64,000 nt of DNA from Methanosarcina barkeri str. Wiesmoor. Lineage in GTDB: Archaea > Halobacteriota > Methanosarcinia > Methanosarcinales > Methanosarcinaceae. The stretch lies in the NCBI RefSeq assembly GCF_000969985.1, contig NZ_CP009526.1, positions 4,650,001 through 4,714,000 of the forward strand. The letters run 5' to 3'. How positions within the stretch are numbered: position 1 is the stretch's first letter; each line of letters begins with the position of its first letter. Shown here one piece after another: positions 1 to 56,944 of the stretch. Made by a program: the position numbers and the translations under genes. The notes below the pieces were generated by a model. It was not told the origin of the DNA, made no database searches, and saw only the letters and a program-made list of their open reading frames with translations.

Positions 1-851
1 CTTGTGATCAAAATTATACTTTTTTCAGTTTATTTTAGGCGAGTAAGTACTTTTCTAATCCATTTCATTCTTTCGATTTATTTTTCCAAGATGTAAAATA
101 CTCAGATTTTTTCTTTGATTTTTGTGCCCACATTTTCCAATCCATGTCAATTATCTGCCATTATCCTATCAAAGGCTTCTCTCTTTATTTGCAACTTCCC
201 TTTTATTTCTTTTCCTGACTTTTTTCTCAACTTTTCTGGCTGATACTTTTCTAATAGGGCAGCTTAATTACTTTACGTAGAATATTTTTGATGCTGCTTT
301 ATTTTTAAATAGCTCTCTTCTCCTCCAGCTAAGACAAACTCCGTAATTTGTTTTATCTCTTACAATTTTCGTTATTTATTAGTCTCCAATGTTAAAATTT
401 GCGGCAAGTGATGAGCGGAAATAATATAGTTTTGAAACTTAAAGCACCTATAAGTAAATTATAAAGAAAATCAATAAGTTTGCGGGACTGAAATCTTAAA
501 GTTCTGAGCTTTCGTACTATTGATTCTCAAGCTTATTTTTTATCGATTTACTTATATTTTTATAATCTGTCAGTTAATACAAATCTTCAATAACTGATAT
601 TTCAATTGTCTAATATTATATATATACTAACATAAGGCCGGAGCATGCGGATACATACTGTATATTATATTTTTTAAGGTAGGACTATCAATAAATTTAT
701 ATATGTATTTTTCCAGATTTTACTTTGAAAAACAAATATTTTGGTAATGTTTAAAATATCTAATTTCTTTCCAGATTCAACAACTTTTAAGATTTTGAGA
801 TCTAAACTTACTCTAAATATATACATAGCTACACAAAGGGGGTTATCAAGA
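1..851. other. AT-rich intergenic region at window start
   Basis: No convincing gene is visible. The sequence is AT-rich and full of stops in all frames. The right part forms the promoter and leader of the glycosyltransferase at 852. Confidence 0.6.
613..625 (+). promoter_or_regulatory. TATA-like box upstream of the glycosyltransferase at 852
   Basis: A run of TATTATATATATA matches an archaeal TATA box. It lies about 225 bases before the preferred start codon, implying a leader of roughly 200 bases, which is ordinary for Methanosarcina. No experimental start is known here. Confidence 0.35.
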
Positions 852-1817
852 ATGAATGATCAGCTACTTATGGAAAATGATACAGGACACATAATAAATA
901 AAAGAAATAAATGTATTGTAAGAAGAGCTTCTAAAAATGTCACAGTTGTCCTTTCTTCCTACAATGAAGAAACGTCTATAGGAAGCATTATACTTCTCAC
1001 GAGGCTCTATGCTGATAGGGTGATTGTAGTTGATGATGCCAGTTCAGATCAAACAGCCGAAATAGCAAAAAAAGCTGGGGCTGAAGTGATTATAAACAGA
1101 ACTAACAGGGGAAAAGGTGCGTCTTTCGAAACAGGTTTTAAAGCTGCAGTCCATCTCGGCGCTGATATAATTGTGACAATGGACTCAAGAGGTCACCATA
1201 ACCCTGACGACATCCCTAGGCTCATTGACCCGATAATAACAGGAAGTGCAGACGTGGTAAATGGGACTCGACATTTAAACAATGTGAACAGTAACATTCC
1301 TGTTTATCGCCGTGTTAGGCAAACGATTCTGAGTAGATTTGCTAATAAAAAATCTGACAAAATTAAAGATTCTCAGGTCACTTTTCGCGCCTTTACAGCT
1401 TCTACAAAAGATATTATTCACCTCGATGCCCAGGACCCGGCGATAGAAAGTGAGATGCTTGCAGATGCAGGCAAATCTGGTCTTCGCATAACAGAAGTCA
1501 AAATAGGTGCCTATTATAACTTTGAAGATCCGGTACAAGATCCAGTCAAGTATTTATTTGGAGTCCTGAAAACTGTAGTTAGAGATATAGAGGCCAATAA
1601 GCCGCTGTACTTTTATGCAGTGCCAGGTTTTGCCCTTGCCACATGCGGTTTTTACATGGGTTTAAAATTTCTTGAAGCTTGTATCCTTGGAATAGAAAAT
1701 CTTCATTTCGGGCCCATACTTTTGATGGTTTTTTTATCTGTTGCAGGAGTATATATGACAGTAACAGGAATTGTAATGCATTCCCTGGTAGAGGTGACCC
1801 AAACAGAGGCTACATAA
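852..1817 (+). CDS. DPM1/GtrB-like family 2 glycosyltransferase with altered DxD site
   Basis: Predicted membrane-anchored family 2 glycosyltransferase of the dolichyl-phosphate-mannose-synthase type. These enzymes move a sugar from a nucleotide donor to polyprenyl phosphate at the inner membrane face. The protein is 321 residues. The GT-A domain begins with VVLSSYNEE near residue 32, has DD at 61-62, and is followed by two C-terminal hydrophobic segments (about 255-315). I chose the ATG at 852 over one at 741 because AAAGGGGG lies 9 bases upstream and the extra 37 residues look like nothing in the family. Odd: the site reading DSDGQHDP in the relative at 13415 reads DSRGHHNP here (111-118), and DSQSGFRA reads DSQVTFRA. 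Metal or donor handling is therefore probably changed, or activity is lost. It is convergent with the next gene. Confidence 0.85.
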   Translation: MNDQLLMENDTGHIINKRNKCIVRRASKNVTVVLSSYNEETSIGSIILLTRLYADRVIVVDDASSDQTAEIAKKAGAEVIINRTNRGKGASFETGFKAAVHLGADIIVTMDSRGHHNPDDIPRLIDPIITGSADVVNGTRHLNNVNSNIPVYRRVRQTILSRFANKKSDKIKDSQVTFRAFTASTKDIIHLDAQDPAIESEMLADAGKSGLRITEVKIGAYYNFEDPVQDPVKYLFGVLKTVVRDIEANKPLYFYAVPGFALATCGFYMGLKFLEACILGIENLHFGPILLMVFLSVAGVYMTVTGIVMHSLVEVTQTEAT

Positions 1818-12507: not shown

Positions 12508-13414
12508 ATAACTCCTCATAAAGCATATGTTTTTTGGCTTCCAAGCCTTTTCGTTATTCGGGCTAATCTGCCAATTTCTCTGTTCACTAATGAGGTTTTT
12601 CGGAAACCTTTCGATTTCCTCTTACCGGCTGCTTTGGTCTTCAATTGCGAAAGAGTTACGCCGGAAAGGTGAAAGCTATCCGAGCTTTAATCCCGGTTTT
12701 CTTCTAATTTAGCAGAATATATTTCCTGAATTATATTCGTTTTCAAGAATGTTTTAACCCGATCTACTCAATTACCTAGTTGTATAAAATATCTTTCCCT
12801 TTTCCTGAATTGTATATAAAATACTTTTCCCTTATTTCCATCTCCTTGAAAGAAGTTTTAGCCTTTTAAGCCTCCATCTATCTAAATTTTTAGATACATT
12901 TTTGGGGTTGAACCCGCAGGGGTTAAGTCTATGGGGTTATAAACATTGACATATAACAAGGAAGTCTTTGAGTTCTTATATCTGCGTAATTTTTTCTTTT
13001 ATTATTCTCTTATTACAGTCAGTAATTGATGCCTTTTAAGCTATTATTTCGGATGGCAGGCGTTTTACATGGGTTTAATTATTTTTTATTATCAGAATTA
13101 CTGGTTAATTATTTTTTGTGTCTAAATGCTTATATATCTCGTATATTAAAACAGATACAGGTCTTGTATTAAATGCTGTGACTCACTTACGGAGTATATA
13201 TGTTCCTTCTTTTGGGTAAAAAGAGGAGAACAATTCCCTCAACTGATTCTCTGTAAATGTAGCCGTAAAAGACCTTTTGAAACCCTCTAAAAATTATGGA
13301 GCGATGACTCTGAAAAATATATTTGCAGAATTTGGAATTTTTACTGATTTTTCTCTAATAAACTACGTTATTAAGACTTCTTACATTTATCTTCAAAGAG
13401 GTAGATGATTGCAT
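12508..13414. other. Divergent promoter region
   Basis: About 900 bases between divergent genes with no supported gene. It holds two near-identical stretches around 12780-12830 (TATAAAATA followed by TTCCCTT), a small perfect hairpin (AACCC-GCAG-GGGTT, 12911-12924) and a TATA-like TTATATATC at 13130-13138 that could drive the plus-strand glycosyltransferase with a leader of about 250 bases. Confidence 0.45.
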
Positions 13415-14314
13415 ATGGCCATTACGATTGCAGCCATGCCTGCCTATAACGAAGCCCACGCCATTGCAGATGTTATCAAGGGTTGCAAAAAATACGTCGA
13501 CAGAGTAGTAGTTGTAGATGACGGAAGCACCGATAATACTGTCGACATCGCCGAATCTCTTGGCGCCTATGTAGTTCGCCACGAAACAAATAAGGGATAT
13601 GGAGCAGCCCTAAGGAACTGCTTTGAAACCGCCCGTAGGCTCGATGCAAATGCTATGGTCATAATTGACTCTGACGGTCAACATGACCCCTCCGAAATTC
13701 CCAAGCTCCTTGAACCCTTGAAAAATGGTTTTGATCTGGTAATTGGCTCAAGGTTTGTCAATGGTAACGGTAAAAATGTCCCTATTTACCGTAAATTCGG
13801 GATGAAAGTCCTTGATATTGCAACCTATATTGCAGGCGGTCTGAATGTAACGGATTCACAAAGCGGCTTCCGAGCTTATGGAAAAAAAGCTATTGAAAAC
13901 ATAAATTTGAATGGCACAGATATGTCGGCAGGCTCTGAAATCCTGATTCAGGCCAAGGATTATAAATTGAAGTTTACTGAAGTGGAAATCCATTGCAGAT
14001 ATGACCTCGAGGACTGCTCAAGTGAGCATCCTTTTATACATGGTCCTAGAGTCCTGTTCCGCATCCTTAAAGATATGGAGTACAGACGACCTTTGTACTA
14101 TTTCTCCGTTCCTGGCCTGATTATGACATCTACAGGCATTCTTATGGGATTAATATTTTTGCAGGATTTTCTTCAGGGAGGATCCCTGCGCTTTGGACCA
14201 ACACTACTTATGGTTATGCTGACGGTTATAGGGGCCTTCATGGTGTTTACCGGAATAATACTGCATGCCATCTCAAGAATGATATTTTTAAACGAGAATA
14301 TTCGAAAACAGTAA
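13415..14314 (+). CDS. DPM1/GtrB-like family 2 glycosyltransferase
   Basis: A 299-residue polyprenyl-phosphate glycosyltransferase. The GT-A domain starts AAMPAYNEA, has VVDDGSTDNT (about 34-43), an intact DSDGQHDP site (85-92) and the acceptor-side DSQSGFRA motif, followed by two C-terminal membrane helices. It would charge a polyprenyl phosphate with a sugar for later transfer outside the membrane, for example by a GT-C enzyme such as the neighbour at 15536. The ATG at 13415 fits the family start. A TTG at 13409, six bases after GAGGT, adds two residues and cannot be excluded. It is first in a run of plus-strand genes (22 bases to the next). Confidence 0.88.
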   Translation: MAITIAAMPAYNEAHAIADVIKGCKKYVDRVVVVDDGSTDNTVDIAESLGAYVVRHETNKGYGAALRNCFETARRLDANAMVIIDSDGQHDPSEIPKLLEPLKNGFDLVIGSRFVNGNGKNVPIYRKFGMKVLDIATYIAGGLNVTDSQSGFRAYGKKAIENINLNGTDMSAGSEILIQAKDYKLKFTEVEIHCRYDLEDCSSEHPFIHGPRVLFRILKDMEYRRPLYYFSVPGLIMTSTGILMGLIFLQDFLQGGSLRFGPTLLMVMLTVIGAFMVFTGIILHAISRMIFLNENIRKQ

Positions 14315-46515: not shown

Positions 46516-48453
46516 TTAGTTTCTGGCCGTTTTTCCTTCCTTTGTGTAAGCAAATACCTCGTCGTTATCATATACTCTGGCATAATCGTGTGTGTTGAAT
46601 CTGTTGAAAAATCCCTCTGGCAATGTCTGGATAATATTTACTCCATAGCGTTCAGGATCATTGATAGAGACAGGTTCTTTAACAGTTGACTTTCTAAGCA
46701 AAATCGTAGGACTGCCATCAATCTCTCCAGTCTGTATATGCTGAATGTTAAAATATGTTGCGTTACTGGAATCATATGCTCTGTCCCTGTAAAAAAGACA
46801 ACTGTCATAGGGGGAATCCATCAGAATATTTCCAGAGCACTTTTCGGTTACTGTTTTAATGGCCTCGATTTCAATACTTTTAAACTGGTTTCTTACGGTT
46901 GTGTCCTTTGCTACAAGTGGGTTGTCTTTATTTATGCCTGGTGTTGTAACCATTACAAACGAAAATAGAAGAATGATTGTGAACATCACAGGTATCCTTG
47001 CTTTTTTTGAGTTAAAGAGACTTACTAATTTCAACATATATGAGGCGGATACAAGTGCCAGGAACACGGCTATCAGTGGGAACCATCGGCTTGTAAGGAA
47101 ATTCCTCATTCCAAGTAAAGGAATTCCATAAGCAAGACCGTACAGGATTATAACAACTAAAGCAATAGAAAACTTATTAACTTTTTTGATATCTTCGCGA
47201 GAAAGCCATGCCAATACTCCTCCTATTGCGAAAAAAGGTAGAGCAAGATAGCTTATATGGAGTAAGAGCGTTTCCAGTGTTTCCTGATTATTTACGGAAC
47301 CCATAATAAGTTCATCACTTGAGTAGCTTGATCCGATTTGAAGGACATCCATAAGAGGACTGAGAACCATTTCAAGAAACGAGGTATTTGAGTTAACATA
47401 AGTGAACATCCAGTATGTTTGTAAACTAATAACAAAAAAGAGGATATAATTAAAACTGTTTATTTTCACGAAAAGACTTTTATATACACGATTGTGCAGA
47501 TATTTGCCTGCACAAATTGAGACTAAAGAAAGAAATACTACAAAAGTTGTCAACTGGTGGGTCAGAACCATTAGAATAGTAGTTAACAGAATGAATCCTG
47601 TATATCTCAAGCTCTGTTTCTCGCTAAAGATCGCGTATATAATGAATATAAAATAGCAAAGAACAAGAGAACCAGGAGTTATATTTGTAATGCCTGCAAC
47701 GATATTATGATTATTTAAGTTTATTAATAATGTTGCCAGCAAACCCATCTGAATGCCTTCAATTTTTTTTCCTACTAGGTAAACGCCTACTGTACTGAGA
47801 ACACTGGCAAACCCTATGGAATAAAATATTGCGTCTTTGATATCGGTTTCACCCATTACCTGGATAATTGAGACAAAAACATGAAAAAGGGGGTAGTAGA
47901 AGTACTTACTGCTTGTTTCAATAGGAGCAACAAATCCGGTATCAGTAATTGCTCGTGACATACTGGCATGGAAATAAGCATCATAGCCCATCAAACTTGG
48001 AAAATTATAAAAAATTCCAACTCTGATGAGAATTGATAGCAGGAATATCTGCAATAATAGAGAGTTCACTCCGTCTCCCTCTCTAACATAAAGAATCTGG
48101 GAGGCGATAATAGCTGCAAGGATACATATCAATATAAAGGAAGATATAGGTCTGTAATATAAACTAGTGCTATATATAAAAACGCATGCCAGAAAAATGA
48201 GATAAAACGAGATTCCCAGTATACTTTTAAATTTGTTTTCTCGGGAAGATATTGCGGCCTCACTCTTAAATTTATTTCTAAATATAAAGTAGATCAAACA
48301 GGAGGACAGAATAGCAATTCCAATATCTTTCTGGTTCAGGTCGATGATGTAGTACAAAGAAATAATTAATAATCCTAAACCGAATCCCATGACGCTGAGA
48401 ATCACATCCAAATTTGTTGTAAGTCTCCCCGCGTATCCTCTTACAGTTACCAT
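46516..48453 (-). CDS. Large GT-C-like polytopic membrane protein
   Basis: A 645-residue membrane protein with about 14 helices and a C-terminal outside domain of about 120 residues. SLMGYDAYFHASMSRA (about 155-170) carries the acidic first-loop residue typical of GT-C transferases, followed by YFYYPLFHVFVS. The protein at 15536 has equivalent motifs. It probably uses a polyprenyl-linked sugar outside the membrane, as a transferase or polymerase. The ATG at 48453 follows TGGGGT at four bases; a start at 48495 is less supported. Genes for a deacetylase-like protein (upstream) and a flippase (downstream) flank it on the same strand. Confidence 0.65.
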   Translation of the reverse strand: MVTVRGYAGRLTTNLDVILSVMGFGLGLLIISLYYIIDLNQKDIGIAILSSCLIYFIFRNKFKSEAAISSRENKFKSILGISFYLIFLACVFIYSTSLYYRPISSFILICILAAIIASQILYVREGDGVNSLLLQIFLLSILIRVGIFYNFPSLMGYDAYFHASMSRAITDTGFVAPIETSSKYFYYPLFHVFVSIIQVMGETDIKDAIFYSIGFASVLSTVGVYLVGKKIEGIQMGLLATLLINLNNHNIVAGITNITPGSLVLCYFIFIIYAIFSEKQSLRYTGFILLTTILMVLTHQLTTFVVFLSLVSICAGKYLHNRVYKSLFVKINSFNYILFFVISLQTYWMFTYVNSNTSFLEMVLSPLMDVLQIGSSYSSDELIMGSVNNQETLETLLLHISYLALPFFAIGGVLAWLSREDIKKVNKFSIALVVIILYGLAYGIPLLGMRNFLTSRWFPLIAVFLALVSASYMLKLVSLFNSKKARIPVMFTIILLFSFVMVTTPGINKDNPLVAKDTTVRNQFKSIEIEAIKTVTEKCSGNILMDSPYDSCLFYRDRAYDSSNATYFNIQHIQTGEIDGSPTILLRKSTVKEPVSINDPERYGVNIIQTLPEGFFNRFNTHDYARVYDNDEVFAYTKEGKTARN

Positions 48454-48574
48454 ACAACCCCACAATATAATAATTTTTGTAAATAGTATATTCAACTTAA
48501 AATATTTTTTGTCGTAAATCCAGACGACTTTTTACGGACTTCTTCTCTCTTTCATGTCCTTTTTCTTTTGCATT

Positions 48575-49618: not shown

Positions 49619-50562
49619 AGTATCCCCCTTAACCATACTTCTTGGATCTTCAACTTTATTAAATATTTGGTTCACTTTAGTTTTGTTTTTCTCATTGAGG
49701 AACCTATCTCGATGATCCTGTCATATCAATCTCGTTCCCACTGAAACCCCAAATATACTTTCTCACAGATTTCTTATATCTTTCAAATCACAACTGTAAA
49801 ATCTTGACTTTTATCTCTTCAGTACGGTTTTTTTCCATATTCTGGCATTTTCTTAATAAGAAATATATCGTATTATTCAGAGATAAAAAGCACAATTATT
49901 CTATTAATATCTATATTTGACATAATACTAACAGAATATTTCCGAAATATTTTGTAGTCTCATCGACAAGCCATCGATAAGCCGAGGCGCGTCAGTCTAC
50001 ATCCTTGTATAATGTCTGCCATTATATAACTAAAAATTATTATGATGTAAGTTTTATCGTTAAATTAAAATTCTTTTATCAGTGTTCTTTCACTATTTAT
50101 ACTATTTTGCTCATTTTGCCTGTTAATATTTAAGTTGTTCAGTATTTGTTATCTCTTCAAGATTCCTTTTTCACGAAAATAGGAACTTATTTCAAATAGG
50201 GAAATTTTTTTTATAATTGGTTTACTCACTCATTACTAAGCAAGTTGCGTGAATAACTAATGTATCCATAAATTGTCCTACCTCATAACTATTATAAATT
50301 CTGTTTTATCTAATATTAATTACATAAGGAGACCTTAGCCAGTCAACTCATCTCTTTTCATCTCTTTTATTTTTATTTTTATTTATAGAGACCATTTGTA
50401 AGGACAATTTTTCCTTATTAATATTTTTACGAGTATATCTTTATTTGATGTTAACCTTATATATATCTTAATCTAATAATTTTTAGTATGATAGCCTTTA
50501 ATATTTTTCCACTTATACAGATAAAGGGGGTTATAGCATATGCATATGTATAAGGGGGTGGA
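49619..50562. other. Divergent promoter region with a possible short upstream frame
   Basis: No long gene. A TATA-like TTATATATA lies at about 50457-50466. Near the right end AAAGGGGGTTAT precedes an ATG at 50540 that opens a 21-codon frame ending at 50605, overlapping the start of the double GT2 gene in another frame. Confidence 0.5.
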
Positions 50563-52164
50563 TTGGGTTTGTTTTCAGCCCTTACACTTGGACTTAATTC
50601 TCTAATCTCTGATCCTATTAGCATAGTATCTTCGCCATCTCAACTTACCGATAGGCTGCTCCAGCATGAATTTACCGTCTTGATTCCAGCTCAGAACGAG
50701 GAAACTTCAATTGGAAGCAAAGTATTGATTGCGGCAAGTTACGCAGACCGTGTACTTGTTCTTGACAAAGGTTCTACCGATCGAACTATGGAAGTAGCTG
50801 CTTTGGGAGGGGCACGAGTTGTTCCTGTCTCCGGTGGGGAGGAGGAACTACTTGATGTCCTCTACAAGGCCTCTCTTGATTCTGAACTTGTGGTTCTTAT
50901 CTATCCGGAATGTATGCAGGATATAGATCTGCTTTCTCATGTCCTTGAGCCTTTAAGACGCGGGTTTGACCTATCTGTGGGTTCGTGGCCCTGCCGCATT
51001 TCTTGTGAGCAGGAAACAGTAATGCTCTTTAATGGGAAAAATACTTTCAAGGAAAAAATAGGCTTTCTTGCAATAACTGCAGACTCACTACAGAAAATCA
51101 GTTCAGGCAAACAGCATTTAACTTTAAAGTCTTTGCTTTCTGCAGCGAAAACCGAAGGACTTAAGGTTAACTATCTGAGTTTTGATGTAGATCCTATATT
51201 CAGGAAGCTTGAGAGCACACGTATTGGAGTTGTTGTGCCTGCTTATAATGAGGAATTACTTATAGGTGAGACTCTAAGCGGTATTCCTGAATATGTGGAC
51301 CGAATTTACGTAATCGATGACGGTAGTATAGATCGAACAGGAGAAATTGTAAAAAAGTTCGGAGACTCCAGAATCGTCTATTTGCGCCATGAAGTAAACA
51401 AAGGAGTAGGCGCAGGAATAATTGACGGATATAAACTTGCTCTGAGAGACGAGATGGACATCGTTGCGGTTATGGCTGGAGATAATCAGATGGATCCTAT
51501 TCAACTTCCCAGGTTGATTTTTCCAATCATTGAGGGGAAAGCTGATTATACAAAAGGCAACAGATTACTCACTGACGATTTTAGGGCCGGAATGAGCAAA
51601 TGGAGATCTCTTGGAAATCTTCTTCTCAGCTTTATCACAAAAATAGGCAGCGGTTACTGGCAAGTTATGGATCCTCAGAATGGATATACAGCTATTTCCA
51701 GGCAGGCCCTAGAGGTTATTGATCTGGATTCAGTCTATCCTTATTATGGCTATTGTAACGATCTGTTGATCAAGCTTAATGCCTTTGGAATGAGAGTAAT
51801 GGATGTAGTAATGCCCGCTCGGTATGGTAGAGAGAGATCAAAGATTCACTACGGTAAGTTTATTCGCAAAGTAGCTCCCATGATCTTTAGAGGTTTTCTA
51901 TGGAGGCTTAGGGTCAAATATACAGTGCTGGACTTCCATCCACTTGTACTATTTTATTTCCTTGGAATGGTTGCCTTGCCTGTTGGTGTTATTTTAGGAA
52001 TATGGGGCTTTTTGCAAATCTTGTTGCAAAATTCCCTCCCTTCCTACTATCCTCTGCTTGGTTTCCTTGTATTGGGCACGGGGCTTCAGATGCTTCTCTT
52101 TGGAATGCTTTTCGATATGCAGGTTGAAAAGAAAAGGAATGAAAGAGTAGGGCTTGCTCGTTAA
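50563..52164 (+). CDS. Fused double GT2 protein: degenerate domain plus intact DPM1-like domain
   Basis: A 533-residue protein with two GT-A domains. The first (about 36-215) starts VLIPAQNEETSIGS but has LDKGSTD for the usual DDGS and YPECMQDID in place of the DxD site, so it looks catalytically dead. The second (about 220-440) has VVVPAYNEE, VIDDGSIDRTGE (250-261) and AGDNQMDP (305-312), then two C-terminal helices. The first domain resembles the protein at 852 (ETSIGS, YADRV). The start is a TTG after GGGGGTGGA; a TTG at 50569 is possible. The second domain probably makes a polyprenyl-phosphate sugar. The first may bind a partner or regulate. Confidence 0.82.
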   Translation: MGLFSALTLGLNSLISDPISIVSSPSQLTDRLLQHEFTVLIPAQNEETSIGSKVLIAASYADRVLVLDKGSTDRTMEVAALGGARVVPVSGGEEELLDVLYKASLDSELVVLIYPECMQDIDLLSHVLEPLRRGFDLSVGSWPCRISCEQETVMLFNGKNTFKEKIGFLAITADSLQKISSGKQHLTLKSLLSAAKTEGLKVNYLSFDVDPIFRKLESTRIGVVVPAYNEELLIGETLSGIPEYVDRIYVIDDGSIDRTGEIVKKFGDSRIVYLRHEVNKGVGAGIIDGYKLALRDEMDIVAVMAGDNQMDPIQLPRLIFPIIEGKADYTKGNRLLTDDFRAGMSKWRSLGNLLLSFITKIGSGYWQVMDPQNGYTAISRQALEVIDLDSVYPYYGYCNDLLIKLNAFGMRVMDVVMPARYGRERSKIHYGKFIRKVAPMIFRGFLWRLRVKYTVLDFHPLVLFYFLGMVALPVGVILGIWGFLQILLQNSLPSYYPLLGFLVLGTGLQMLLFGMLFDMQVEKKRNERVGLAR

Positions 52165-52354: not shown

Positions 52355-54066
52355 ACTTTCCGCAGTAAATTTTCTGGATTTGATATTTTTCAAATCATGT
52401 ACTTACTTTTTATAAAATCTCATCCAATTTCCCCTTGATGACTCTCTCTCCCATCTCTGAATCCACAACTCATCTTGGTCATTATGGCCTTATTGCTGGC
52501 ATATTTGACGAACTTGAAATTTCAGATTTGATTGACACTCTTCTTCCTAAGAAAAGTGGTCATAACATTTCTCATTCTACTGTTCTTAAGGCAATGTGCA
52601 TTAACGGTTTAGGATTTACTGAACGTCGTCTTTACCTATTTCCTGCTTTCTTTGAAAACTTGCCCACTGAAAGGTTACTGGGAGAAGGTGTTCTCCCAGA
52701 ACACCTTAATGATGACGTTTTTGGCAGAACTCTGGACAAAATCCAGGAATATGGAGCAACCGAAATCTTCAATCATATAATTCTGCAAGCTATGAAACAC
52801 GTTCCTATTAATCCTCGTTTTTGTCATTCAGATACTACAAATTTCAGTGTTTATGGTGACTATAAAAATGATGATAACGGCAAAACTATCAACATTACTT
52901 ATGGTCATCCTAAAGATAAGAGAGTCGATTTACTTCGTTTTTCTATTTCTATGGTTACTGATCAGAAAAGAATTCCTCTGTTTGTGAGAGCGTTAGATGG
53001 TAACAGTTCCGATAAGAAAGTTCTCATCAAAACCATAAAGGAAGTAACACAGAACCTGAATCTTGATCAGAGAGTCTACCATATTGCAGACAGTGCATTT
53101 TATACTGAAGATAATGTCAAAGAGATAGGAACTAACGCTTTTTTCATCTCGAGAGTACCTGCAACCATCAATGAATCAAAGGAATTATTGATGACAGACT
53201 TAATTCTGGAAACATGCTCTGATGAACGTTATTCTTGTTCTGCTGTAAAATCCTGTTATGGTGGAGTAGAACAGTTATGGGTTGTATTCTGTTCAGAGGA
53301 AATGAAAAAGAAGGAAGAGAAGAAATTTGATGAAAAGATTCTCAAAGAGCTTGAAGCAGCAGAAAAGTCTCTTAAAAAGCTTTCTAATCATGAGTTTGCT
53401 TGTGAAGCAGACGCAAGAATGGCTGCTGAACAATGGTTGAAAGAGAATGAACTGTATGAATTCCAGAAACTTGAAATAAAAACTAAGTCACACAGACTTG
53501 GAAACAAGAAAGGAAGACCAAGGAAAGGTGAAGATGTACAGACTTTTTACCTGATAGAAGCAGAGATAAAACACGACCAGGAGAAAGTACAGGAAAAAAG
53601 AGCAAAGTTAGGAAGGTTCATTCTTGCAACCAATGATCTGGAGTTGACTCCAGATCAACTCCTAAAGTACTATAAAGAACAGGGAACAGTTGAAAGAGGG
53701 TTCAGGTTCCTTAAAGATAAGAGTTTCAGAGTGTCTGAGGTGTACCTGAAAAAAGAGTCCAGAATAGAAGCACTTGCAATGGTAATGGTTCTGTGTTTGT
53801 TATTGTATTCAATAGCTGAATGGAAACTGAGAACAAGATTGGAGGAAACAAAAGAAGCTATTAGAAACCAAGTAAAGAAGAAAACACAGACTCCAACAAT
53901 GAAATGGGTATTCTTTCAGTTCAGGAGAATAACGGAGTTAGAGATCGAAATTGAGGGAAAGAGGATAAAAAAGGTATTAAATCTGGATGAAGAAACAATT
54001 AAAGTGCTGAGATTGATGGGAGAAAAATACGAAAAATATTATATGTGAAAAAATAATGCGGAAAGT
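52355..54066 (+). mobile_element. IS1634-family insertion sequence
   Basis: About 1.71 kb bounded by inverted ends: ACTTTCCGCAGTAAATTTTC on the left and the complement of TGCGGAAAGT on the right, which read inward continues ACTTTCCGCATTATTTTTTC. A second partial left end (CTTTCCGCAGTAAAATTTC at 52324) lies 31 bases outside. I could not see a clear target duplication. The single gene is a full-length transposase, so the element may be active. Confidence 0.8.
52438..54048 (+). CDS. IS1634-family DDE transposase
   Basis: A 536-residue transposase with the DUF4277-type N-terminal region (THLGHYGLIAGIFDEL) and an RNase H-like core split by an insertion. The presumed catalytic residues are D in FCHSDTTNF, D in YHIADSAFY and E in GTVERGFRFL. 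The basic, coiled-coil-like stretch at about 285-380 belongs to the insertion domain. No frameshift or stop is present. The ATG at 52438 directly follows a TTG that could also start. Confidence 0.9.
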   Translation: MTLSPISESTTHLGHYGLIAGIFDELEISDLIDTLLPKKSGHNISHSTVLKAMCINGLGFTERRLYLFPAFFENLPTERLLGEGVLPEHLNDDVFGRTLDKIQEYGATEIFNHIILQAMKHVPINPRFCHSDTTNFSVYGDYKNDDNGKTINITYGHPKDKRVDLLRFSISMVTDQKRIPLFVRALDGNSSDKKVLIKTIKEVTQNLNLDQRVYHIADSAFYTEDNVKEIGTNAFFISRVPATINESKELLMTDLILETCSDERYSCSAVKSCYGGVEQLWVVFCSEEMKKKEEKKFDEKILKELEAAEKSLKKLSNHEFACEADARMAAEQWLKENELYEFQKLEIKTKSHRLGNKKGRPRKGEDVQTFYLIEAEIKHDQEKVQEKRAKLGRFILATNDLELTPDQLLKYYKEQGTVERGFRFLKDKSFRVSEVYLKKESRIEALAMVMVLCLLLYSIAEWKLRTRLEETKEAIRNQVKKKTQTPTMKWVFFQFRRITELEIEIEGKRIKKVLNLDEETIKVLRLMGEKYEKYYM

Positions 54067-54667: not shown

Positions 54668-56755
54668 TCAGGTATACTCTATAGTGAGTTTGGGTCTCTG
54701 ATTTTTATTTTGCCAGTTGGAACTGTAGAAAGCTACATAGTTTTCATCTTCCTCGTGGGCTTTTATAAGGAAACCTGTATTCTCGTACTTTCCGCTTATA
54801 TATTCCTGCACAAGTTCTGTTACATCTAGGTCGTAGTAGCGGTTGTCAGGGGTTTCATCTCCACTGATAGTTACCTTGGCATATGGAGTGCTTCCCTGGA
54901 AAATCCCATTCCGGTCATACCAGTCTCCTCCAGAGTTTTTCCAAGGGTCATTAGATTCCCTCTGCTGCCAGGTAACATGTTCTCTGCACCATTTCGTAGG
55001 CCTGTATACTTCCAGTATGGTATCCTTCGATCTTATTTGATTCTCCGGATAGTACCAGAATAAAGATAGGGTTGCCTCATCAACCTGGTCAGTCTGATTA
55101 AGTGAACTCAGATCAAAGATTATAACGCCTCTGTAAATGCCTCCATCGGATTTTTTTCCGACATCTATATACTCACTATCACTAAAAGTGATATTTGGAG
55201 CTTCTTCTCTCAGCCTGTTGTCAGAAATAATGAAAGGTAAAGCAATTTTAAGGTTTTCCGCTTTATCAGACTGCATCGAAAGATTTAAGAATAATTTTTT
55301 CAGGAACCTTATAAACTCTGAAAAAGCCCTTTTAAGACTCGACTCAAAGCCTTCTTCCTGTCCGGTCTGGACTTTGCTTTCATTTATCTCATAAGGCATC
55401 TGTGGTCCAGCAGACATAGCTTCACTCCAGGGAAAGTCCTTACCCAAAGACTCATTGGTGTTCAACTTCGCTGCAAGTTCTGAGTCAGCTTCAACGTCTG
55501 AGGTAGAATTTACACCCATATAATTTCCACCGGCGTTGCCTGAAAGACAATTGTTTTCCAGGATAAAGGAATGGGTATTTTTTAGATGGTTGTATACAGC
55601 ATATCCATCTCCAGCTGCAGGACTAGACTGTGTATTAATTATTATATTATTTTTCACGATAGTTATATAGCCTGAACCTGGGGCCGAAAATTCATCACTG
55701 ACCTGTTTATGGGCAATAGCAGCTCCATAGCATCCGTCAAATTTATTGTTCTCTATCATGGTATTTTGGACACCATTAAGCACTATGCCCCCTGACCAGT
55801 CCGCACCCTCGTTAATACCGGTTTTATAAAATTTATTATGGTGTATGAATATATCTTTTGCAGAATCTTTAGAATACCCGGATCCATAGCCTGTAATCCA
55901 TATACCTGCTGTGTTCGTCTCATATAGCAGATTATTGTAGATCTCGATATCATTCATCACAGTTGACGGACCAATTTTCTGGATTTCGATTCCTGCCCCA
56001 CCCCCTCCTTCTGAGTTAATTATATTGTTATAGAATTTTACATGGTTTGTATTGTAAATTCTCAAACCGCTATTCGTTCTGCACGTTATTTTATTATTCC
56101 AGGCCTCTATATTCGAAGAATAGATAGCGTAGAGGACGTCATGCCCTAACTTATATACCCGGTTATTGTAAAACTTAACACCTGAACATTTTACGGCTTT
56201 AAGCCCATCGCCATGGCTGTCATGCATATACATATCGTGAACCTGTATATTCTCGCAGTTAAGGACATGGATCAGGTTATGATATCCTTTCCCCCTATTC
56301 TTTTCATTGTTTTTATCGTGATTTCCGTCAATCTCAAATCCCCTTATAGTAATATCATGATTTCCAACACTGTCCATCTGCGTAATCATAGGTTTTTCTA
56401 GAGGCCAACCTGCTTTATCTTCAAGTTTGATTACGGCTGTAGAATCTCCTGCCAGAATAGTGTCGTTTCCAATAAAAATACTGTCCGAGATGATGTATGT
56501 ATTGGGGCCCTTCAGATGAACGGTTGTGAACTGAGGGTTTTCTGCAACATATGCAAGAGCTTTGTTTATCTCTACCTGGTCGTCACTTCCATCACAGTTA
56601 AAGTCCCCACTTCCATTGGTAGCAACATAAACTGTTGTACAGGATGTCTTTGATAAAGTGAGAGTTATACTTACGATTATAAAAACAAAAATTATATTAA
56701 GAAACAATAACTTTTTTCTGTCTCCCCATTTATACGTTAGCTTCTTTCCATTCAT
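54668..56755 (-). CDS. Disaggregatase-family secreted protein 5 (beta-helix plus one repeat)
   Basis: A 695-residue protein with an N-terminal hydrophobic signal or anchor (LLFLNIIFVFIIVSITL, about 17-33) and the disaggregatase motif VYVATNGSGDFNCDGSDD. A beta-helix (about 120-430) lacks the last turns and the CIDSGY block seen in the array proteins. A linker with an amphipathic stretch (EFIRFLKKLFLNLSMQ) follows, then one disaggregatase-related repeat (DNRLREEAPNITFSDSEYID to PKLTIEYT). The ATG at 56755 has GGGGAT five bases upstream; a start at 56791 adds 12 residues. It is separate from the plus-strand array and about as diverged from it as protein 6. Likely an extracellular matrix enzyme. 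Confidence 0.8.
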   Translation of the reverse strand: MNGKKLTYKWGDRKKLLFLNIIFVFIIVSITLTLSKTSCTTVYVATNGSGDFNCDGSDDQVEINKALAYVAENPQFTTVHLKGPNTYIISDSIFIGNDTILAGDSTAVIKLEDKAGWPLEKPMITQMDSVGNHDITIRGFEIDGNHDKNNEKNRGKGYHNLIHVLNCENIQVHDMYMHDSHGDGLKAVKCSGVKFYNNRVYKLGHDVLYAIYSSNIEAWNNKITCRTNSGLRIYNTNHVKFYNNIINSEGGGGAGIEIQKIGPSTVMNDIEIYNNLLYETNTAGIWITGYGSGYSKDSAKDIFIHHNKFYKTGINEGADWSGGIVLNGVQNTMIENNKFDGCYGAAIAHKQVSDEFSAPGSGYITIVKNNIIINTQSSPAAGDGYAVYNHLKNTHSFILENNCLSGNAGGNYMGVNSTSDVEADSELAAKLNTNESLGKDFPWSEAMSAGPQMPYEINESKVQTGQEEGFESSLKRAFSEFIRFLKKLFLNLSMQSDKAENLKIALPFIISDNRLREEAPNITFSDSEYIDVGKKSDGGIYRGVIIFDLSSLNQTDQVDEATLSLFWYYPENQIRSKDTILEVYRPTKWCREHVTWQQRESNDPWKNSGGDWYDRNGIFQGSTPYAKVTISGDETPDNRYYDLDVTELVQEYISGKYENTGFLIKAHEEDENYVAFYSSNWQNKNQRPKLTIEYT

Positions 56756-56944
56756 TTCAAATCCCCAATATATTGAACTATAATTCTTCAATATTAAAAA
56801 ATTTATCTTTTAGGACTGCAAATAAACTCCCCTCAAAAATATTTGCATTCTTCCCACTGCTTGAATCTCAGAACTAAAGTTCTGAAAAGTGCATCTTAAC
56901 TTTAAAAATTAAAATACATTCATGGAAAATCTGAATTTTTAAAA

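Follow-up and report, generated by a model that had tools for sequence, protein, structure and literature searches.

The window, i.e., the whole stretch of 64,000 nt analyzed here, comes from Methanosarcina barkeri str. Wiesmoor (NZ_CP009526.1, positions 4,650,001 to 4,714,000; assembly GCF_000969985.1). A mechanically called open reading frame of 533 codons at 50563–52164 on the (+) strand, beginning with TTG at 50563, encodes two GT-A domains (here D1 and D2) in a single frame, which bears out the sequence-only reading of this DNA, in which the two were fused in one polypeptide. The true start is very probably the TTG at 50569, giving a protein of 531 aa, since the aligned codon is ATG or TTG in all 20 aligned sequences and lies downstream of a G-rich ribosome-binding site, whereas the codon at 50563 could serve as a start in 11 of the 20 and is a stop in one relative (L058). 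Residue numbers are nevertheless counted from TTG 50563, not from the conserved start. The parts of the gene are as follows, with active-site positions mapped by profile alignment onto PfDPMS, the dolichyl-phosphate mannose synthase of Pyrococcus furiosus (5MLZ/5MM1):

50554–50562 (+): probable ribosome-binding site, GGGGGTGGA, judged from the sequence and G-rich in orthologues
50569–52164 (+): whole fused gene from the conserved start TTG 50569, 531 aa
50569–50664 (+): N-terminal tail, with low model confidence and weak constraint
50665–51186 (+): D1, degenerate GT-A domain, about residues 35–208 (model, fold and profile comparison)
50767–50769 (+): D1 K69, in the place of the base-binding Asp (PfDPMS Asp39)
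50902–50916 (+): D1 YPECM, residues 114–118, in the place of DxDxQ (PfDPMS 89–93)
50986–50988 (+): D1 W142, in the place of the GSR Arg (PfDPMS Arg117)
51187–51219 (+): short D1–D2 junction, residues 209–219 (secondary structure of the model)
51220–51846 (+): D2, complete GT2 GT-A domain, residues 220–428 (PF00535; fold match to PfDPMS)
51319–51321 (+): D2 D253, equivalent of the base-binding Asp
51481–51489 (+): D2 D307-N-Q309, equivalents of the metal-binding Asp91 and Gln93
51562–51564 (+): D2 R334, equivalent of Arg117
51850–52158 (+): C-terminal helices, residues 430–456, 461–487 and 495–532 (model; PfDPMS/ArnC alignments extend into them)

Upstream of the fused gene lie polysaccharide-deacetylase-like, flippase-like, GNAT/FemAB-like, GT4-type and GT2-type genes as well as a gene for a 659-aa membrane protein (46516–48495). 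The latter is rich in hydrophobic stretches and gave no match to a Pfam family or PDB sequence; that it is a GT-C enzyme is a guess. In 12 of 18 compared loci, the fused gene is preceded by flippase-like and membrane genes, including the 659-aa type, within a polysaccharide/glycoconjugate gene set. Four further features of the window are relevant here:

741–1817 (+): stand-alone GT2 of the ancestral group of D1, hereafter the 852 enzyme (trees; motif scoring)
13409–14314 (+): motif-complete stand-alone GT2, the closest relative of D1 in the separate Methanoculleus-type fusion (trees)
52435–54048: DDE transposase carrying DUF4277, immediately downstream of the fused gene
54668–56791: disaggregatase-related protein (PF06848, PF08480), just downstream

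Disaggregatase-related proteins are associated with the cell matrix of Methanosarcina, and because of this neighbor the region may be concerned with matrix polysaccharide. The gene neighborhood as a whole fits cell-surface glycan synthesis.

Analysis of D2 placed it next to the polyisoprenyl-phosphate glycosyltransferases of family GT2. The whole protein scored 92.1 bits against PF00535, with the best stretch at residues 223–385, i.e., within D2. In the whole-chain model, D2 matched PfDPMS (5mm1) with a Z of 23.1 (rmsd 5.8 over 278 residues, 220–521) and GtrB (9nyd) with a Z of 21.9 (rmsd 2.2 over 211 residues), and its profile matched 5mlz with an E-value of 1.9e-30. D2 is thus like PfDPMS and GtrB/ArnC in fold, in its equivalents of Asp39, Asp91, Gln93 and Arg117 and in its C-terminal helices, which from the model may comprise an amphipathic or interface helix and a membrane hairpin, with residues 461–487 and 495–532 predicted to cross the membrane. 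In PMC5526996, Asp39 of PfDPMS is assigned to the base, Asp91 and Gln93 to the metal and Arg117 to the lipid phosphate. The corresponding D253, D307, Q309 and R334 of D2 are invariant in all 55 aligned rows. An earlier description of the second domain as complete therefore stands for these four residues but not for the equivalent of PfDPMS Asp89, which is Ala (A305) in 55 of 55 rows and Asp in only 2 of 60 fused proteins. Since Asp89 makes no direct contact with the metal and D89A retains residual activity (PMC5526996), we did not count A305 as excluding D2 from the DPMS/GtrB/ArnC type. Based on its fold and invariant residues, and because GT2 enzymes with a lipid phosphate acceptor require no catalytic base (PMC7185993), D2 is most simply, and probably, a polyprenyl-phosphate glycosyltransferase with a putative role in transferring sugar to polyprenyl phosphate. 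Its best NCBIfam match, AglJ (TIGR04182), reached 121.1 bits, far under the curated cut-off of 325, which indicates a related family and not AglJ itself.

D1 is a degenerate GT2/GT-A domain. An AlphaFold2 model of D1 alone, built from 42 rows (pLDDT 83.1, pTM 0.80), matched mannosylglycerate synthase 2bo4 (Z 16.0, rmsd 3.1, 166 aligned), GpgS 5jud (Z 15.3, rmsd 3.3, 157 aligned) and GtrB 9nyc (Z 14.7, rmsd 3.8, 165 aligned). In profile–profile comparison (hhalign), D1 matched stand-alone GT2s at 99.9% (E 1.1e-34) and the D2 family at 99.0% (E 3.4e-18). The D1 piece on its own (187 aa) scored 16.2 bits against PF00535, under the 23.3 cut-off, with the match at residues 8–49 of the piece. The possibility that D1 would fall outside GT2 in profile searches, raised beforehand, was thus borne out by the Pfam score but not by the profile comparison, the fold and the tree (see below), and because these three agree, D1 stays inside GT2 despite the sub-threshold score.

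Among 22 window-type rows, the residue equivalent to Asp39 (69) was K in 10, E in 5, R in 3, Q in 2, H in 1 and G in 1; that equivalent to Asp89 (114) was Y in 21 and H in 1; to Asp91 (116), E in 18, D in 3 and A in 1; to Gln93 (118), M in 20 and L in 2; and to Arg117 (142), W in 21 and Q in 1. D1 also has no acceptor segment of the kind that bears PxYRRxGQ in the stand-alone enzymes, and by motif scoring 0 of 7 window-type rows had any of five donor/metal residues. The Glu of NEE (E46) and D68, the first Asp of “DDGS,” are retained, the latter in 22 of 22 window-type rows. Hence the claim that D1 lacks both aspartate sites holds functionally but not literally, as D68 is kept and residue 116 is mostly acidic; NEETSIGS and YADRV are indeed present in both D1 and the 852 enzyme. 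To judge from these residues, D1 is very likely non-catalytic. Given D68, the acidic residue 116 and the Asp39 equivalent kept in 45 of 60 fused D1s (see below), D1 may nonetheless bind a nucleotide or have weak activity.

The whole-chain model reached a pLDDT of 80.2 and a pTM of 0.61, the latter too low for reliable placement of the domains relative to each other. The D1–D2 junction in this model is only ~11 residues, and the two domains must therefore lie close together.

A search of 59 genomes, of which 30 belonged to the genus Methanosarcina (the window's own included), revealed the window-type fusion at full length in 27 of the 30 Methanosarcina genomes, with 79 to 100% identity, and this conservation excludes a chance origin of the fusion. 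In the other three, the gene was split by a frame change (G019), cut at a contig end (G004) or not found (G018). The genome of the window itself carries a second fused paralogue (C2:1125745–1127223, 53%) and, on contig 1, a D2 relative without the fusion. Fused relatives also occur in other Methanosarcinaceae, in Methanoperedens and in Methanomicrobiales; the fusion, for which a search in other archaea had been proposed, is widely conserved. Two fused genes on contigs labelled Deltaproteobacteria (L085) and Bacteroidales (L057) closely resemble the Methanomicrobiales (L093) and Methanosarcina copies, and these contigs are probably misbinned archaeal DNA.

Pairwise Nei–Gojobori dN/dS among 16 orthologues, limited to pairs with dS < 1.5, was 0.27 for the N-terminal tail (117 of 120 pairs), 0.076 for D1 (88 pairs), 0.044 for D2 (58 pairs) and 0.093 for the membrane part (78 pairs). 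Across 18 Methanosarcina rows, 95 of 181 positions were invariant in D1 and 143 of 208 in D2. With this dN/dS and number of invariant positions, D1 is under strong purifying selection and is not a decaying passenger. That D1 has been retained by evolution, though without its site, suggests a role for the dead copy in controlling or supporting the live D2.

We further examined how the two domains vary across the phylum, where 140 of 392 genomes gave a match to the fused-family profile at E ≤ 1e-60, mostly in D2 alone. Forty loci were taken from this search and other matches: 38 encode D1–D2, one has a receiver in place of D1 (L182) and one has D2 alone (L185). Among the metagenome-assembled genome (MAG) copies, two carry an in-frame TAA within D1 (L069, L138) and three have frame changes (L062, L067, L075); these broken copies reflect either assembly error or real decay. 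Strong matches to the window-type D1 profile (E < 1e-60) were found in frames with D2 or were fragments arising from frame changes or contig ends, whereas D2-family proteins without a fused partner make up 37 of the 67 rows in the D2 tree. Since D1 is found with D2 but D2 is often alone, D1 depends on D2 and not the reverse.

For motif scoring, we used 60 fused proteins, i.e., the 40 loci and 24 earlier rows minus L182, L185 and the duplicates L181 and L183. Equivalents of Asp39, Asp91, Gln93 and Arg117 were all present in 60 of 60 D2s but in only 1 of 60 D1s (L080), a comparison in which the rows were collected through D2 similarity and are thus biased toward those with an intact D2. Taken singly, these residues were retained in D1 in 45, 20, 4 and 7 of the 60 proteins, respectively. 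The pattern of loss differs: the window type has LDKGS, IYPECM and SWP; other Methanosarcinaceae keep VDDGS but have, e.g., LYANG; Methanoregula-like D1s retain both VDDNS and GSR but show IDSSGK; and Methanoculleus-type D1s keep the donor motifs, with the Arg of GSR absent in four of five and most of the segment after GSR absent in three of five. Judged by these motifs, the D1 sites appear to have been lost by different routes in different lineages.

Phylogenetic analysis showed that D1 and D2 have separate ancestries. The 23 D1s from Methanosarcina and Methanoperedens formed one group (100/99) among the stand-alone GT2s of a 59-row tree, in which the D2 family was set apart by a long branch (1.66; support 100/100). 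In the D2 tree, the D2s of the Methanosarcina and Methanoperedens fusions also formed one group (94/88). With D2 on its own branch and D1 among the stand-alone enzymes, the idea that D1 arose from D2 by internal duplication was rejected; D1 descended from a stand-alone GT2 group that includes the 852 enzyme. The special kinship between D1 and the 852 enzyme suggested by the sequence-only reading did not survive: a single clade of window-type D1 and the 852 type was rejected (p-AU 1e-5), and only the wider group is common to both. Where its kin show MDSDGQH, the 852 enzyme reads MDSRGHH and so is without the Asp91 and Gln93 equivalents, as is a relative with 83% identity (L133); it is possibly a second, stand-alone pseudo-glycosyltransferase. 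Its best NCBIfam match was likewise AglJ (TIGR04182), with 123 bits, again far under the cut-off of 325.

A single origin of all fusions was rejected when the D1s were held together (p 0.0007) and when the D2s were (p 7e-8). Holding the Methanosarcina/Methanoperedens D1s together with the Methanoculleus-type L080 gave p 0.0018. Methanosarcinales and Methanoregula-like D1s as one clade were not rejected (p 0.17; p 0.365 in a larger set), and the corresponding D2 clade was disfavored (p 0.022). In a larger D1 tree, the D1s of other Methanosarcinaceae genera were placed apart from the group of the window, and holding them together with those of the window type, the Methanosarcina paralogue, Methanoperedens and f14 was weakly rejected (p 0.037); some of the groups tested in this way were named only after the trees had been viewed. 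Because these D1s separate although the D2s of all these fusions form one group (93), D1 may have been replaced in the other genera, or long branches may be misleading. Overall, at least two and probably three acquisitions of an extra GT-A domain took place in the D2 family, perhaps with replacement, although the trees alone do not separate gain from loss.

One fused protein (L144:3734–5368) was considered as a living ancestor with an intact D1. The N-terminal half of its D1 shares 78% identity with L132, a live stand-alone GT2 of the same group, and clusters with enzymes of that kind (99/91), and the C-terminal half is of the degenerate D1 type (44% identity to L135, 11% to L132); given these mosaic halves, a recombinant is equally likely, and the candidate was set aside. 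Two other arrangements were observed. A triple protein in a Methanosarcinales MAG (L072:9968–12010) has a further GT2-like domain ahead of the D1–D2 fusion, with DDGS and MDSNGRHDP and without the acceptor segment. A different tandem (L143:771–2309, (−) strand) joins a segment-less GT2, like the first domain of the triple protein, to a complete GT2 of the stand-alone type.

In three Methanoregula MAGs, the place ahead of D2 is occupied by a CheY-like receiver domain (PF00072; 77.4, 78.0 and 81.3 bits), and the three D2s form one group (100). These receiver–D2 fusions are the following:

L111:9593–10969: PF00072 receiver ahead of D2
L114:9590–10939: PF00072 receiver ahead of D2
L116:9587–10948: PF00072 receiver ahead of D2

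All three receivers have DD, SDYLMPE and a Lys in place, which we take to be the phosphorylation site. The usual job of a CheY-like receiver is control, and these fusions are the best, though indirect, hint that the D1 slot is used for control. Inspection by eye of 20 further D2-family loci showed no receiver or other N-terminal domain; long frames in GC-rich D2-family loci represent stop-free stretches upstream of a start near MYR.

We moderately favor a joint reading in which D2 is a polyprenyl-phosphate glycosyltransferase and D1 a non-catalytic pseudo-glycosyltransferase that acts on it in cis in a regulatory or structural way. Specifically, D2, with its GT-A domain and C-terminal membrane hairpin, would move sugar from a nucleotide-sugar to a polyprenyl lipid phosphate. 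D1 would have come from a different, stand-alone GT2, lost its nucleotide, metal and acceptor sites and become an accessory domain that sets the activity or assembly of D2. This accessory role is supported by the finding that the slot ahead of D2 has been filled independently by other GT-A domains and once by a receiver. A bolder and tentative extension, which we consider possible but not likely, is that the N-terminal position is a control slot refilled repeatedly, by different stand-alone glycosyltransferases and once by a phosphorylatable receiver, in which dead glycosyltransferases with different routes of loss serve as allosteric donor sensors or switches, like pseudokinases.

Other explanations were weighed against this accessory reading. 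D1 might be a sensor that binds a nucleotide or nucleotide-sugar without turnover and tunes D2 allosterically. Retention of the base-binding Asp in 45 of 60 fused D1s, against the metal-site Gln in only 4, agrees with this idea, as does the receiver in the same slot in Methanoregula; however, the window type has lost that Asp in 22 of 22 rows, and we regard such a sensor as unlikely. It is less likely still that D1 remains an enzyme, either a second glycosyltransferase or a nucleotide-sugar hydrolase, with a changed and perhaps metal-independent site that would make the protein bifunctional. The constant D68, a residue 116 that is acidic in 21 of 22 window-type rows, the complete D1 motifs of L080 and the top Foldseek match of the whole chain (chondroitin polymerase K4CP, which has tandem GT-A domains) all point that way. 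Against them stand the missing Gln93, Arg117 and Asp89 equivalents and acceptor segment, the free variation of residue 69 among K, E, Q, H, R and G, and motif states that are very different between lineages, unlike those of a conserved active site.

Donor channeling, in which D1 would pass on a donor or product, either to D2 or to a neighboring enzyme, is in keeping with the close tethering of the two domains in the model and with the other glycosyltransferase and flippase genes nearby, but the nucleotide site is lost in the window-type D1, making this proposal very improbable. Least credible of all is that D1 is a remnant in decay, or that the fusion stems from an assembly or frame error: although frame changes or in-frame stops occur in or near D1 in L062, L067, L075 and L069, the full-length copies in 27 of 30 genomes, the low dN/dS of D1 and its invariant positions refute this for the genus Methanosarcina.

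Comparison with known systems places the accessory reading of D1 among several precedents. For the N-terminal D1, the PfDPMS and GtrB structures described in PMC5526996 offer no counterpart. LH3 (PLOD3) is a tandem GT-A protein with a non-catalytic accessory GT-A domain (PMC6082870); to judge from the sequence pattern, the D1–D2 protein resembles it in having a GT-A domain with apparently lost activity beside a live one in a single chain. LH3 differs in being a human collagen-modifying enzyme of other GT families, without polyprenyl-phosphate chemistry. In EXTL3 (PMC9178029) and COSMC (PMC7185993), a glycosyltransferase domain or protein has been retained after loss of activity as a scaffold, partner or helper, but EXTL3 pairs a dead GT47 with a live GT64, and COSMC, a GT31-family member, is a separate polypeptide. 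Receiver–glycosyltransferase fusions of Methanobacteriaceae, e.g., MTH_548, are described in a census of two-component proteins in archaea (PMC5847659). These resemble L111, L114 and L116 in joining one or more receiver domains to a glycosyltransferase domain in methanogens but carry a cellulose-synthase-like PF13641 domain, in contrast to the DPMS-like D2 family. A term-based search of one open-access library listed no paper on the D1–D2 fusion. Dead GT-A partners are already known, and what is new is the archaeal polyprenyl-phosphate setting with repeated joining.

If the accessory reading is true, pseudo-glycosyltransferases arose more than once next to the same live enzyme, and the role of a dead glycosyltransferase domain could be tested by deleting half a gene in hosts that are genetically tractable. 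It would also point to the supply of lipid-linked sugars being directly controlled in archaea; were the control-slot extension to hold, D1-type domains would set the entry of sugar into the lipid-linked pool for the cell surface.
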